From positions 1 through 22,306 of IMG/VR virus record IMGVR_UViG_3300030110_000419: a stretch of 22,306 bases of DNA; one strand, written 5' to 3'. A program made the position numbers and the translations under genes. The stretch comes from a virus. Shown here one piece after another: positions 2,455 to 15,867 of this stretch. The notes below the pieces were generated by a model that had not been told where the DNA came from, ran no database searches, and was given only the letters and a program-made list of their open reading frames with translations. Each line of letters opens with the position of its first letter. Within the stretch, counting starts at the first letter, position 1.

Positions 2455-2490
2455 AAGCGTTCCAAGTGTCAGCTTGGGGCGTTTCGTTTT
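2455..2490 (+). terminator. Intrinsic terminator between convergent genes
   Basis: The arm 2455-2466 pairs with 2473-2484 (12 bp including G-T pairs at 2460-2461 and 2457) around the loop TGTCAG, followed by TCGTTTT. On the opposite strand the G-T pairs become mismatches and no T-run follows, so it works for the + strand gene ending at 2393 rather than for the minus-strand gene ending at 2489. Confidence 0.65.
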
Positions 2491-2770
2491 ATTTGTCGAT
2501 AAAGATGATAGCTCTCTTGCCTACATCTTGCCCAACACTCCAAACACTATTGTCATAAAAATATGAGTAAGTGTTATCATTAACAAGGACACGAAATTTT
2601 CCAGTTTCTGATGACCCTTCTAGTTTTGCTTGAACTGAAATTTGAGGTTCAAAGCATTTGCGTAATTGGGTTCTATCTAAAACCCAGCTAACGCAAACTG
2701 TTTCGCCAATAAGATTTGCAAGAGCAGTTGTAATGCTCTCATGGTCTTTAGCAACATATGGTGTTTCCAT
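2489..2770 (-). CDS. Hypothetical minus-strand protein (93 aa)
   Basis: The start at 2770 is supported by AAAGGA on the minus strand (complement of 2778-2783), 7 nt upstream. The N-terminal third (KDHESITTALANLIGETVCVSW) looks like a helix followed by a beta strand. The rest alternates short strands (ISVQAKL, FRVLVND, YSYFYDNSVWSVG), so a small mostly-beta domain is likely. No known family or catalytic motif is recognised. It is read opposite to the late genes from the divergent region at 2771-3061, the typical place for an early or regulatory phage gene. Its 5' leader would carry a 6-bp hairpin. Confidence 0.75.
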   Translation of the reverse strand: METPYVAKDHESITTALANLIGETVCVSWVLDRTQLRKCFEPQISVQAKLEGSSETGKFRVLVNDNTYSYFYDNSVWSVGQDVGKRAIIFIDK

Positions 2771-11612: not shown

Positions 11613-12002
11613 ATGGCAAAAAACATTAGAGCCAAGTTCTTTGAAGAACAACGAGAAACAACAAAAGTTGCATTGGTTGAAATTTCTATTATTGGAGACC
11701 CTTCAACAGTTGTTTTAAAAGTAACTGAAGAACACAAAGAGCAATTTCCTGATGAATGGAAAGCATTTGCAGGTGGCAAAGATGATGTTGTTACAGATGG
11801 AACGCCTTTGACAGATGTTAAAGGTATTGGGCCTAAATTAGCTTCTAAATTAAAAGTTAATGGCATTCATACGGCAGAACAATTAGCCGCTGTAAATGAT
11901 GGTGGTTTAGAAGCTGTGGGAATGAGTGCTTACACTCACAGGCAAAGTGCAAGAGAATTGTTGAATTTAGTGCCTGATGCTGTTGGAGCTATTGCGCCAT
12001 GA
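11613..12002 (+). CDS. Helix-hairpin-helix domain protein
   Basis: In this 129-aa protein the first half (FFEEQRETTKVALVEISIIGD) has strand-like segments and a linker with EQFPDEWKAF. The second half (about residues 67-95), TDVKGIGPKLASKLKVNG followed by IHTAEQLAAV, is a canonical helix-hairpin-helix of the HhH_5 type: the KGIGPKLA turn contacts the DNA backbone without sequence preference. It lies between basic small proteins and the head-tail adaptor, and ends with an ATGA overlap with the latter. Similar proteins with an N-terminal beta part and a C-terminal HhH occur in phage connector regions; a role in holding or guiding DNA at the portal vertex is a fair guess. Confidence 0.8.
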   Translation: MAKNIRAKFFEEQRETTKVALVEISIIGDPSTVVLKVTEEHKEQFPDEWKAFAGGKDDVVTDGTPLTDVKGIGPKLASKLKVNGIHTAEQLAAVNDGGLEAVGMSAYTHRQSARELLNLVPDAVGAIAP

Positions 12003-12715
12003 CGTTATTAACTATTATAACTGGGGCAACAGATGAGATTGGTTTAGAACGGCCTGAGTCTGTTATTTCAAACACAGATCCACAAGTTCGGCAATTATTG
12101 CGAGCGGCATCACAAGAAGGAAAACATCTTGCTAGCGTGTATGATTGGGAAATATTACAAAAAGAAGGATCATTAACTACGGCAGCTCAAGAAAGCCAAG
12201 GAGTGATGACAACTGTTGCATCAGACTTTGATAGGTTTGCAAATGATACAATGTGGAATCGAACAACGAGTGAAAAGATTTATGGCCCTTTAACTGATGT
12301 TCAATGGCAAAGAGAAAAATCTGATGTTACAAGTGGAGTAACAAACTACTTTAGAATAAGAGGTGGTTCAATACTGTTCACTCCTAATCCTGTTGCAAGC
12401 CAAACAGTCAAGTTTGAATATTATTCTAAAAACTGGGTTGACACAGGATCAGGTGCTTCTCCTGCTGTTGCTGATGGTTCAGCATTTGATAATGACGCAA
12501 ATACAGTTGTTTTTGATGAAGAGCTAATGACTCTAGGTGTAACATTTAGATGGTTGCAAGGCAGAGGATTAGATTTTACAACAGCATTTTCAAATTATCG
12601 TGAAAGGCTTGAAATTGTTAGAGGCCAAGATGGGGCTAAACCTAATATTGATATGGGTGGGTTAAATTATGGCTTTCTTGGAGTTAATGTTCCATCGTCT
12701 AATTATGGGACATAA
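11999..12715 (+). CDS. Head-tail adaptor/connector protein
   Basis: A 238-aa protein. The N-terminal region (DEIGLERPESVISNTDPQVRQLLRAASQEGKHLAS then YDWEILQKEG) is a helical bundle pattern, followed by DFDRFANDTMWNRT, YGPLTDVQWQ, YFRIRGGSILFTPNP and VKFEYYSKNWV. This order is characteristic of a connector family in short-tailed and other phages of Alphaproteobacteria, fulfilling the gp4-like adaptor role below the portal in P22-type particles. Length is usual for the group. It overlaps the HhH gene (ATGA), and the next gene begins 3 nt after its stop. The family match is by motif order from memory; the adaptor role comes from family context and location. Confidence 0.82.
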   Translation: MTLLTIITGATDEIGLERPESVISNTDPQVRQLLRAASQEGKHLASVYDWEILQKEGSLTTAAQESQGVMTTVASDFDRFANDTMWNRTTSEKIYGPLTDVQWQREKSDVTSGVTNYFRIRGGSILFTPNPVASQTVKFEYYSKNWVDTGSGASPAVADGSAFDNDANTVVFDEELMTLGVTFRWLQGRGLDFTTAFSNYRERLEIVRGQDGAKPNIDMGGLNYGFLGVNVPSSNYGT

Positions 12716-12718
12716 AAA

Positions 12719-14041
12719 ATGCCAGTTTATAATCGGCAATCATTAGCGGATGCACTTTTATATCCTGATAGGTCGGTGAGCTACAGAGGAATGTTAGCTC
12801 CATATTTAAAACGTACAGTTACTGACCCGATTGATGATGTCAGCGAGTATGAGCAAAGAGAATTTGCTATGCCAAGCCTTTTATTTGACCCTTTGCAGGG
12901 TTTGGTTGGTATGGGGCAAATGCTTCGTGGAGAACGCTCTGTAGACCCAAGGGAGATCACCAAGACGGCATTGGATATTGGAATGCTGTCAGCCCCTGTC
13001 GGTGGGCTTCTTGGGGGTGTTCCCAAAGGGGCTGTGCTGGGTGCGAATGTAGGGGGTCGAACATTATTGTATGATGCACCATATTCAAATTACAAAATAG
13101 ATCCTAGTTTGCCAGAGCTTTTAAAAAAAGGAACAACAGTTAAAGAAACGTCTGATTATGTGCCAACTAAAATAATATCTCCAGAAGACCTTGCAAGCGA
13201 AGGGTATCTTTTAAATTTAGTGGGCGATAGAACAGGCGTTGGAAAAATTACCCAATTACTAGGAGAAGATTTAAACGTCCCTATACCACTAGATGGTGGT
13301 ATGGGATATATGCGTGGCAAAGGTACAGGCGCATGGGCATCTGATCCAAATGTTATTAGATCATTAAGTAAAAAAGTGCAATCGGCAGAGGGTAAACCTG
13401 TATATGGCACTTATAGTGCTATGAGTGGCACAGCTTCAGATTTTGCAAATATGACAAGAAATGTTGCTTTACGAAATTTCGATCCTAAAGATTTGCGTAA
13501 AAAAGATATTAAAAATTTTAATGAAAGATTTAAAAAACAAAAAGAATCTGAAAAATTGACAAAGGATTTTCCTGGGCTAGATTCGCCAGAACTTGATGTT
13601 TGGTTAAACAAGTCTGGGACAAGAAGGGCTGCTTTATTTAAATTTATGGATAAAGCTGAGTGGCGAGATAAAGGGTTTCCAAACATTACGCAAGCAAGGT
13701 ACGCTATCCAAGACCCATTGCTCAGAAATTTGCCTTCTGGCGTTGAGCAATATGGAGGGCAATCTATAGCAAGAATGGATGCTTCTGGAATACAAAAACC
13801 AACAAGTGAGTTAAGTATGCCACATGGCACATATTCTGTTGACCTTGGTGGAAATTATCTTGGGGGGCTAAAAAAAGCGGTTCCACGAAGCGTTTTGTTT
13901 CCAGAATGGTATAATTTGCGAAGACAAAGTGGTTCGCCAATGGCTAGTGACAATAGAGCGTTTCAAATGACTCCTGTTTTGCAACCTACTAATGATGAAT
14001 GGTTGTCAGGCGTAATGAAGTTTTTAGAATCTAATCAATAG
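12719..14041 (+). CDS. Polyvalent-protein-like domain protein, probable internal virion protein
   Basis: At 440 aa the N-terminal part includes LADALLYPDRSVSYRGMLAPY and a hydrophobic Gly-rich stretch (about residues 87-112: LDIGMLSAPVGGLLGG, then AVLGANVGG). From about residue 165 a distinctive domain begins: GDRTGVG, then PLDGGMGYMR and GAWASDPNVI. Later landmarks are GTYSAMSG, WLNKSG..RRAALFKFMDKAEWRDKGFP, GTYSVDLGGNYLGGLKKAVPR and FPEWYNLRR. This succession of 'GDRTgvG...GGxxyM...AWAS...YSAM...FP' motifs is found in domains of large phage and mobile-element polyvalent proteins. No catalytic residues are recognised. Position between adaptor and gp10-like tail gene suggests a virion or ejected protein. 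Its last 11 bp overlap the opposing gene. Confidence 0.68.
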   Translation: MPVYNRQSLADALLYPDRSVSYRGMLAPYLKRTVTDPIDDVSEYEQREFAMPSLLFDPLQGLVGMGQMLRGERSVDPREITKTALDIGMLSAPVGGLLGGVPKGAVLGANVGGRTLLYDAPYSNYKIDPSLPELLKKGTTVKETSDYVPTKIISPEDLASEGYLLNLVGDRTGVGKITQLLGEDLNVPIPLDGGMGYMRGKGTGAWASDPNVIRSLSKKVQSAEGKPVYGTYSAMSGTASDFANMTRNVALRNFDPKDLRKKDIKNFNERFKKQKESEKLTKDFPGLDSPELDVWLNKSGTRRAALFKFMDKAEWRDKGFPNITQARYAIQDPLLRNLPSGVEQYGGQSIARMDASGIQKPTSELSMPHGTYSVDLGGNYLGGLKKAVPRSVLFPEWYNLRRQSGSPMASDNRAFQMTPVLQPTNDEWLSGVMKFLESNQ

Positions 14042-14249
14042 CAATAAATTCTGAGTCGCCAAGGTAATCTTCTCGACACACTTGGTGTAAATTAAAAAGG
14101 CGTGATTGTTCGCTTAATAAAAAATTTTTGGCACTATCAGGAAGTTCGGCAAAGCACGTTGACTCATAAGTATTTAAAGCATTATAAGCAAGGCGTTCTA
14201 GTGTGTTGTAAATGTTAGAAATAGCTTTTTCTTGATCTTGAACAAACAT
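14031..14249 (-). CDS. Minus-strand small hypothetical protein inside the late operon
   Basis: A 72-aa protein whose start at 14249 has an ideal site on the minus strand, AAGGAG (complement of 14258-14263), 8 nt upstream. The sequence is helical and acidic (DQEKAISNIYNTLERLAYNALNTYES, then ELPDSAKNFLLSEQSRLF) with two Cys and no membrane segment. It is convergent with the 12719 gene, overlapping its last 11 bp, and is read from the intergenic region at 14250-14355, where a TATAAT lies on its strand. An isolated reversed gene in a virion cluster usually marks a later insertion with its own expression. Its transcript would run antisense into the 12719 gene, since no minus-strand terminator is visible. 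No family recognised. Confidence 0.72.
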   Translation of the reverse strand: MFVQDQEKAISNIYNTLERLAYNALNTYESTCFAELPDSAKNFLLSEQSRLFNLHQVCREDYLGDSEFIAID

Positions 14250-14251
14250 TA

Positions 14252-14280
14252 TTGTTTCTCCTTCAAAGTTAAATATTATA
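14252..14280. promoter_or_regulatory. Probable bidirectional promoter region
   Basis: On the minus strand TATAAT (complement of 14275-14280) precedes the AAGGAG of the 14031-14249 gene by about 12 nt. On the plus strand TTGTTT (14252-14257), a 16-bp spacer and TATTAT (14274-14279) could start transcription near 14287 toward the 14356 gene. The rest of 14281-14355 is very AT-rich and holds no gene that I trust. Both calls rest on consensus matching only. Confidence 0.4.
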
Positions 14281-14355
14281 CAAAATTTTTAAACAATTTA
14301 AAACAAAAAAGTGATAGCACATGAGCAATAAAAAAAATCAAATTAGAGGGAAATA

Positions 14356-15867
14356 ATGAGGCAAGCACAAGGCACAGCAATCCCTGCTCCTATAGGCGGT
14401 TGGAATACTCGTGATGCAGTAGACATGATGGGGCCAGCAGATGCTATTATTCTTGATAATTTCTTTCCTGATGAAAGTGAGGTAAGATTAAGAAAGGGCA
14501 GTGCATCCCATGCGACAGGGTTAACTGATGCAGTTGAGTCAATCATGCCTTACAAATCAGGTTCAGCAAGTAAATTGTTTGCGGCTACCAGTGGGGGCAA
14601 TGTTTACGATGTTACAAGTTCGGGGGCTGTAGGATCAGCCGCAATTTCCAGTTTATCTAATGGTCAATTTCAATATGTAAACTTTGGAACAAGTGGTGGT
14701 AATTTTTTGTGGATTTGCAATGGTGCGGATTCTCCCAGACATTTTAATGGCACATCATGGGCAACACCTTCTATTTCTGGAGTTACAGGTTCAACAATTG
14801 TTAATGTAACAGCGCATAAAACAAGGTTATTTTTTGTTTTAATTAACAGTTTAAAATTTGGTTATTTGCCTGTTGCAAGTGTAGCTGGAACAGTAGCAAC
14901 TTTTGATTTAGCTTCTATTGCTCAAAAAGGTGGATCATTGCAAGCCATAGGCACTTGGACGAGAGATGGCGGTGATGGTTCTGATGATTTAGCTGTATTT
15001 CTTACAAGTGAAGGCGAGGCAATTGTTTATGCAGGAACAAATCCTGGAAGTGCAGATGCTTGGAATTTAGTCGGTGTTTTTAATATTGGCAGACCAATTG
15101 GCAGAAGATGCGTTGAAAAAGTTGGGGCTGATTTAATTGTTACAACAGAAAATGGTTTTTTGCCTTTATCAAAAATTTTACCATTAGGGTTAAGTGCGCC
15201 AAGTGCGGCTATATCGGATAAAATATCAGGTTCAGTAAAAGAAGCTGCAAGAAATTTTAAAGGCACGTTTGGATGGCAGAGTATATTATATCCAAAAGGT
15301 GGTTTTGGTTTGTTTAATGTCCCAAATTCTACAGTTAGAGATTATCACCAATATGTAGTTAATTTAACGACAGGTTCATGGTGTCGGTTTACAGGTATGA
15401 ATGGAAATGCTTGGGGCGTTCACGAAGGTGATTTATATTTTGGTGGAGCAGGGATAGTATATAAGGCAGATACAGGTGCAAATGACGCTGGAACCGCCAT
15501 AGAAGGCAGTGGGAAGACTTCTTTTCAATACTTTGGTGGTAGGGGCATTTTAAAACAATTCACCCTTATACGGCCAATTATCGCCTCTGATGGCGCATTG
15601 CCTGTTAGTATAGGTTTTGATGTAGACTTTAAAGACGGCACAAGTATTTTTACACCAAGCTCTGTATCAAGTGAGGGAGCCGAATGGGACGTTGCAACAT
15701 GGGATGTTTCGGCATGGGCTTCTGATTCGGAGCCTATTCAAACATGGCGCAGTGTTACAGGCGTTGGATATAATGCGGCAATTAGGATAAGAACATCAAC
15801 AACAAATCAAGGTGTGACATGGCACGCTGTAGATGTTCAATATAAAAATGGCACTGGACTTAGATAA
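14356..15867 (+). CDS. P22 gp10-like tail/DNA-stabilisation protein
   Basis: A 503-aa protein that opens with GTAIPAPIGGWNTRDAVDMMGPADAIILDNFFPDE and RLRKGSASHATG, the signature of the family often annotated as packaged-DNA stabilisation protein gp10 or tail nozzle in P22-like and many alphaproteobacterial podophages. The remainder is a beta-rich, repetitive (propeller-like) sequence with units such as KLFAATSGGNVYDVTSSG and FLWICNGADSPRHFNGTSW, and a C-terminal part ending WHAVDVQYKNG. It would plug the portal channel after packaging and form the short tail tube. It has an AGAGGG site 5 nt before the ATG and probably its own promoter. The 12719 gene and the inverted gene separate it from the adaptor. 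P22 gp10 is 472 aa, a similar length. Confidence 0.86.
   Translation: MRQAQGTAIPAPIGGWNTRDAVDMMGPADAIILDNFFPDESEVRLRKGSASHATGLTDAVESIMPYKSGSASKLFAATSGGNVYDVTSSGAVGSAAISSLSNGQFQYVNFGTSGGNFLWICNGADSPRHFNGTSWATPSISGVTGSTIVNVTAHKTRLFFVLINSLKFGYLPVASVAGTVATFDLASIAQKGGSLQAIGTWTRDGGDGSDDLAVFLTSEGEAIVYAGTNPGSADAWNLVGVFNIGRPIGRRCVEKVGADLIVTTENGFLPLSKILPLGLSAPSAAISDKISGSVKEAARNFKGTFGWQSILYPKGGFGLFNVPNSTVRDYHQYVVNLTTGSWCRFTGMNGNAWGVHEGDLYFGGAGIVYKADTGANDAGTAIEGSGKTSFQYFGGRGILKQFTLIRPIIASDGALPVSIGFDVDFKDGTSIFTPSSVSSEGAEWDVATWDVSAWASDSEPIQTWRSVTGVGYNAAIRIRTSTTNQGVTWHAVDVQYKNGTGLR

Follow-up and report, generated by a model that had tools for sequence, protein, structure and literature searches.

The reversed gene p72 lies in an accessory insertion between the adaptor and gp10-like genes of the window, i.e., the whole stretch of 22,306 nt that was analysed (IMG/VR record IMGVR_UViG_3300030110_000419). 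The locus contains the following features, given in window coordinates.

11999-12715, plus strand: adaptor (SU10-adaptor-like), left flank
12716-14355, both strands: accessory insertion between adaptor and gp10-like gene, 1,640 nt from stop codon to start codon
12719-13051, plus strand: N-terminal domain (NTD), residues 1-111 of the 440-aa cargo protein, common to cargo proteins with other C-terminal modules
13052-14041, plus strand: C-terminal domain (CTD) module, residues 112-440, uncharacterised domain of phage effector/polyvalent-like proteins
14031-14041: overlap of the convergent 3' ends of p72 and the 12719 gene, 11 bp
14031-14249, minus strand: p72, 72 aa, ATG start, acidic (pI 4.4), predicted helical hairpin, proposed cognate neutraliser of the CTD
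14258-14263, minus strand (read 14263-14258): Shine-Dalgarno sequence AAGGAG of p72, 8 nt from the ATG
14275-14302, minus strand: promoter-like site of p72, TTTAAA-16-TATAAT, assigned by sequence
14356-15867, plus strand: phage stabilisation/gp10-like protein (phrog_5107), right flank; its relatives in GenBank are annotated as phage stabilization protein or tubular tail B protein

An earlier, sequence-only reading had described a 72-aa minus-strand gene that shares 11 bp with the end of the 12719 gene. This ORF (14031-14249) was confirmed, and its stop codon falls within the final 11 bp of the plus-strand ORF 12719-14041. The AAGGAG and TATAAT named in that reading were both found on the strand of p72 at fitting distances, a combination that occurs at one of the 819 ATGs on the two strands of the window, namely that of p72. 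The -10 element (TATAAT, 14280-14275) is preceded by a -35 element (TTTAAA, 14302-14297) with a 4/6 match and a spacer of 16, and the L007 copy of p72 also has TATAAT, there with TGC before it (extended -10). Clear sigma-70-like promoters upstream of p72 are limited to three lineages, those of the window, L007 and L082. Across the region promoter-like matches are not enriched (11 found vs 11.9 expected in shuffles), and the promoter suggested earlier for the gp10-like gene does not rise above this chance level. An intrinsic terminator-like site was not found in the region. A second reversed ORF of 93 aa is located left of the terminase gene (2489-2770, minus strand) and has no Pfam match.

By its pattern of conservation p72 is a real protein gene, because the reading frame is preserved in homologues down to 28% identity and pN/pS between the window and L007 is 0.38. 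The nine homologues are acidic without exception (pI 4.1-4.8), and divergence is faster in p72 than in its CTD (pN/pS 0.38 vs 0.11). An acidic pI and faster divergence than the partner are common in immunity proteins. The predicted helical hairpin has no meaningful match in the PDB, and searches of PADLOC, Pfam and PHROGs gave no match above threshold for p72. Residues 33-48 of the p72 family (window 14106-14153) show a pattern, F.ELP...Q..LL, with a weak resemblance to the ubiquitin-binding UBM motif (Pfam E 0.069 in one member; PDB pol iota E 0.042); 'LP..Q..LL' is probably a common hairpin pattern.

The 12719 gene belongs to the same insertion as p72, which had been taken for a single isolated insert. 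In the records L003 and L004, with flanks about 99% identical to those of the window, both genes are missing (1,637 bp) with clean edges. The adaptor stop codon and the gp10-like start codon are separated by 3 nt in these two records and abut (0 nt) in L006, L010 and L012; no copy of the cargo gene was found elsewhere in these five. Presence and absence with clean edges, which the sequence-only reading had rightly proposed to look for in syntenic relatives, was therefore seen, and p72 does not occupy this place in all relatives, since the slot is empty or filled by other cargo in some (L005, L008, L009 and more distant relatives). Alleles with p72 carry NTD and CTD (window) or NTD, an ADP-ribosyltransferase (ART)-like segment and CTD (L007), whereas those without p72 are empty (L003), NTD with another module (L005) or NTD with the ART-like segment (L008). 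This segment, which starts VFHGGPHR...GYGFYSA, resembles polyvalent-type ADP-ribosyltransferases by eye in L007 (3830-4739), L008 (4990-6004) and L082 and has no Pfam match. L005 (2297-2468), with the other module, keeps an 80-bp spacer before the gp10-like gene containing the -35-like region of the p72 promoter and TATACT, with no reversed gene, and this retained spacer is likely a recombination scar.

Other cargo was observed in the adaptor-gp10 slot of more distant relatives. L034 carries an S-adenosylmethionine decarboxylase gene (1600-1992; Pfam AdoMet_dc, E 5e-20), to which L041 3982-4377 and L033 2041-2397 are similar by eye, and L013-L016 have genes for repetitive, beta-rich-looking proteins of unknown function. 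NTD-bearing cargo proteins are encoded just after the gp10-like gene, i.e., on its other side, in L021, L023, L027, L031 and L032; the cargo gene therefore moves between neighbouring positions.

The cargo protein is modular. Its NTD recurs with other C-terminal parts in the phage group of the window and also, in a second group, upstream of the portal gene. The CTD gave no match in Pfam, PHROGs, NCBIfam or PADLOC, and its profile found nothing significant among PDB sequences. The AlphaFold model (pLDDT 74) had no PDB match in Foldseek (best E 1.0, prob 0.02), and VIA-align returned a best Z of 3.1 over 63 residues, with no PDB relative. Matches to the model in BFVD, with E values down to 2.5e-19, are exclusively uncharacterised phage proteins. 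The CTD homologue L079 carries LPD23 and, in the wider CTD family, MW202675 carries InPase; because homologues with the CTD carry these domains, their architecture would place the CTD among phage polyvalent proteins (PMC5512222).

A close CTD occurs in 13 contigs (nine distinct sequences, 61-88% identical to the CTD of the window), and every one of them has next to it a convergent, overlapping p72 homologue of 66-79 aa, which is acidic, and in nine of nine distinct lineages the overlap with the CTD gene measures 4-29 bp. The surroundings of the pair vary between adaptor/gp10, portal and terminase genes. In the portal-linked group L136, L137 and L151, whose portals are 97-99% identical, other cargo is found up to the portal start, without p72. 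After dereplication over two phage groups (families), p72 was present in 5/5 cases with the CTD vs 0/12 with another module or nothing (Fisher, 1.6e-4). As far as the scans of the viral collection reached, no orphan p72 without CTD was detected; no relatives of CTD or p72 were confirmed in cellular genomes, and none were found on plasmids.

The proportion of synonymous differences between the window and L007 is 0.51 for the CTD and 0.42 for p72, compared with 0.89 for the adaptor, 0.84 for the NTD, 0.73 for the gp10-like gene and 0.66 for the next gene. In L007 GC3 is low only in the CTD (0.38) and p72 (0.40), with 0.46-0.55 in the surroundings, so that these two arrived together in L007. Over nine pairs the distances of CTD and p72 correlate (Mantel r 0.80). 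The signature of recent transfer and the correlated divergence indicate that CTD and p72 moved jointly, and since p72 moves and diverges with the CTD its role is to be read from this partner. The sequence-only reading recognised a real and unusual gene but missed the share of the neighbouring gene in the insertion, which gives p72 its likely meaning.

Distant CTD proteins also have convergent small neighbours. In the clade of Roseobacter phage CRP-902 (gp72/gp71; L073, OQ401624.1, 3491-5037; L108-L129) a distant CTD protein is accompanied by a convergent 77-aa gene with a promoter-like site of its own (TTGTAT-17-TATATT). The gp71-type gene is present in about 10 contigs and cleanly absent in about 10 others, with effectors 74-86% identical to that of CRP-902. 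Due to these absences the partner is not obligatory in this clade, where it is either dispensable or has been replaced, and a universal partner rule becomes less certain. The L084-L104 group has a convergent gene of 68-69 aa (family A7), for the most part neutral to basic, whose overlap is always 20 bp. As this gene directly follows coding-like minus-strand sequence, it would appear to be the end of an opposite operon and was left out as support. Homology among the p72, CRP-902 gp71 and L084-type families was not detected by hhalign.

The locus is a cassette, as seen from the modular cargo, the strict linkage of the CTD to p72 within this clade, their joint transfer and the convergent, overlapping layout. 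We favour, with some reserve, the reading that p72 is the neutraliser half of a mobile effector-neutraliser cassette in a polyvalent-protein locus, in which the CTD would be the effector. Neutralisation is the simplest role for p72 because the protein is small, acidic and strictly tied to one effector-like module and not to the others in the slot, and an off-switch (immunity protein) of the CTD module thus seems its most likely function. In the proposed course of events the cargo protein would be made late and taken into the virion by its NTD. It would then be ejected together with the DNA, in the manner of polyvalent proteins or MuF toxins, and the CTD would act on a target in the newly entered cell. 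p72 would bind the CTD and shut it off. Because p72 is encoded on the other strand under a promoter of its own, it could be made independently of late transcription, probably earlier. The producing cell would thereby be protected, and the CTD would be active for no longer than the minutes after entry. Against this reading count the missing PDB match of the CTD, the absence of the small partner from about half of the relatives in the CRP-902 clade and the restriction of clear p72 promoters to the three lineages given above. More tentatively, the CTD may represent a widespread, unnamed domain of effectors delivered at entry. One clade of lytic phages would then have a dedicated reversed-strand neutraliser that serves as a timed off-switch, with the effector active only from DNA entry until early p72 expression, and different effector subclades would have recruited unrelated small partners at the same convergent position. 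An integrase was not found in any of the records examined, all of which are fragments, and lysogen immunity is therefore not the obvious purpose.

The main rival to the neutraliser reading is that p72 serves the CTD as a dedicated chaperone, packaging factor or activating cofactor, for solubility or capsid loading, with no toxicity to oppose. The same strict linkage and co-divergence would be expected, a small acidic protein with a predicted helical hairpin would suit such a role, and toxicity of the CTD is itself only inferred. However, one would look for a packaging helper beside its client on the late strand and not reversed under its own promoter, and the other modules in the slot need no such helper. 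We regard this alternative as unlikely, though still the strongest of those considered.

Somewhat less probable still is an independent moron, with an anti-defence or superinfection-exclusion function, that hitchhikes with the cargo gene. Like morons of tailed phages, p72 is a reversed accessory gene in a late operon, with promoter-like signals of its own (by sequence) in several lineages, and it is missing with clean edges in close relatives; the convergent small gene also comes and goes in the CRP-902 clade. To this extent the moron-like character given to p72 in the sequence-only reading holds, but its independence does not. Within this clade p72 is always found with the CTD and never without it, across phages and positions, and it was transferred jointly with the CTD half only; unlike in morons, the accessory unit takes in the plus-strand cargo gene. 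For the functions suggested earlier (host takeover, superinfection exclusion, anti-defence) nothing specific was found, and p72 has no defence-related match.

It is very unlikely that p72 acts mainly as a cis-antisense element, with reversed transcription silencing the cargo gene early and the peptide being secondary. The convergent overlap is found in all lineages, and, as the region has no intrinsic terminator-like site, transcription could continue into the cargo gene; however, the peptide is conserved over the identity range given above and under purifying selection, and the overlap itself is short in every lineage. An ordinary operon-boundary gene with linkage from common descent, as the L084-L104 gene resembles and as the relatedness of many contigs might allow, is the least probable explanation, since in the window clade the pair adjoins adaptor/gp10, portal or terminase genes and is exchanged as a whole between neighbours that stay 97-99% identical, and the synonymous-difference and GC3 data for CTD and p72 disfavour it as well.

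Among known systems, phage polyvalent proteins are encoded in the neighbourhood of late genes and are thought to be injected (Iyer et al., 2017, PMC5512222). The cargo gene likewise lies among virion genes, flanked by adaptor and gp10-like genes, and resembles these multi-module accessory proteins; among CTD homologues LPD23 is carried by L079 and InPase by MW202675. The window protein itself consists of NTD and CTD only, with no Pfam match. In difference to polyvalent proteins, the CTD matches no Pfam LPD family, and the genomic-context section of PMC5512222 describes no cognate convergent small gene.

The MuF polymorphic toxins of temperate phages, in which a small immunity ORF adjoins the toxin (PMC5576092), share with the locus a conserved N-terminal delivery-type domain, variable C-terminal modules and a small neighbouring putative immunity ORF. 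Here the variable modules are attached to the NTD of this locus, which matches no Pfam family, MuF included, and the small gene is linked to the CTD, which it would neutralise. The locus further differs in its place near adaptor/gp10, portal or terminase genes, in that p72 is reversed and convergent whereas the MuF immunity ORF is directly downstream, and in that no integrase was seen.

A two-gene cassette with a small acidic partner is also reminiscent of type II toxin-antitoxin systems, among them TscA (PF23767, NF047365), to which residues 4-33 of p72 have a weak match. p72 was rejected as a TscA antitoxin, as the scores (18.1 vs 27 bits and 17.5 vs 90 bits) are below cut-off and one of nine homologues matched; a search for literature on TscAT found nothing relevant. 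In contrast to type II systems, the partner is a large virion-locus protein and the genes are convergent and not co-operonic. The locus is a new, two-gene version of the polyvalent/polymorphic-toxin theme.

Phage polyvalent proteins are predicted injected effectors, and for many of the domains in them no activity is known. If a domain has to be neutralised, it probably harms the cell, which would make the CTD a strong candidate for a host-targeting activity, and p72 a ready reagent to express and crystallise it. The reversed layout also points to a way in which a phage might time an effector and its antidote separately.
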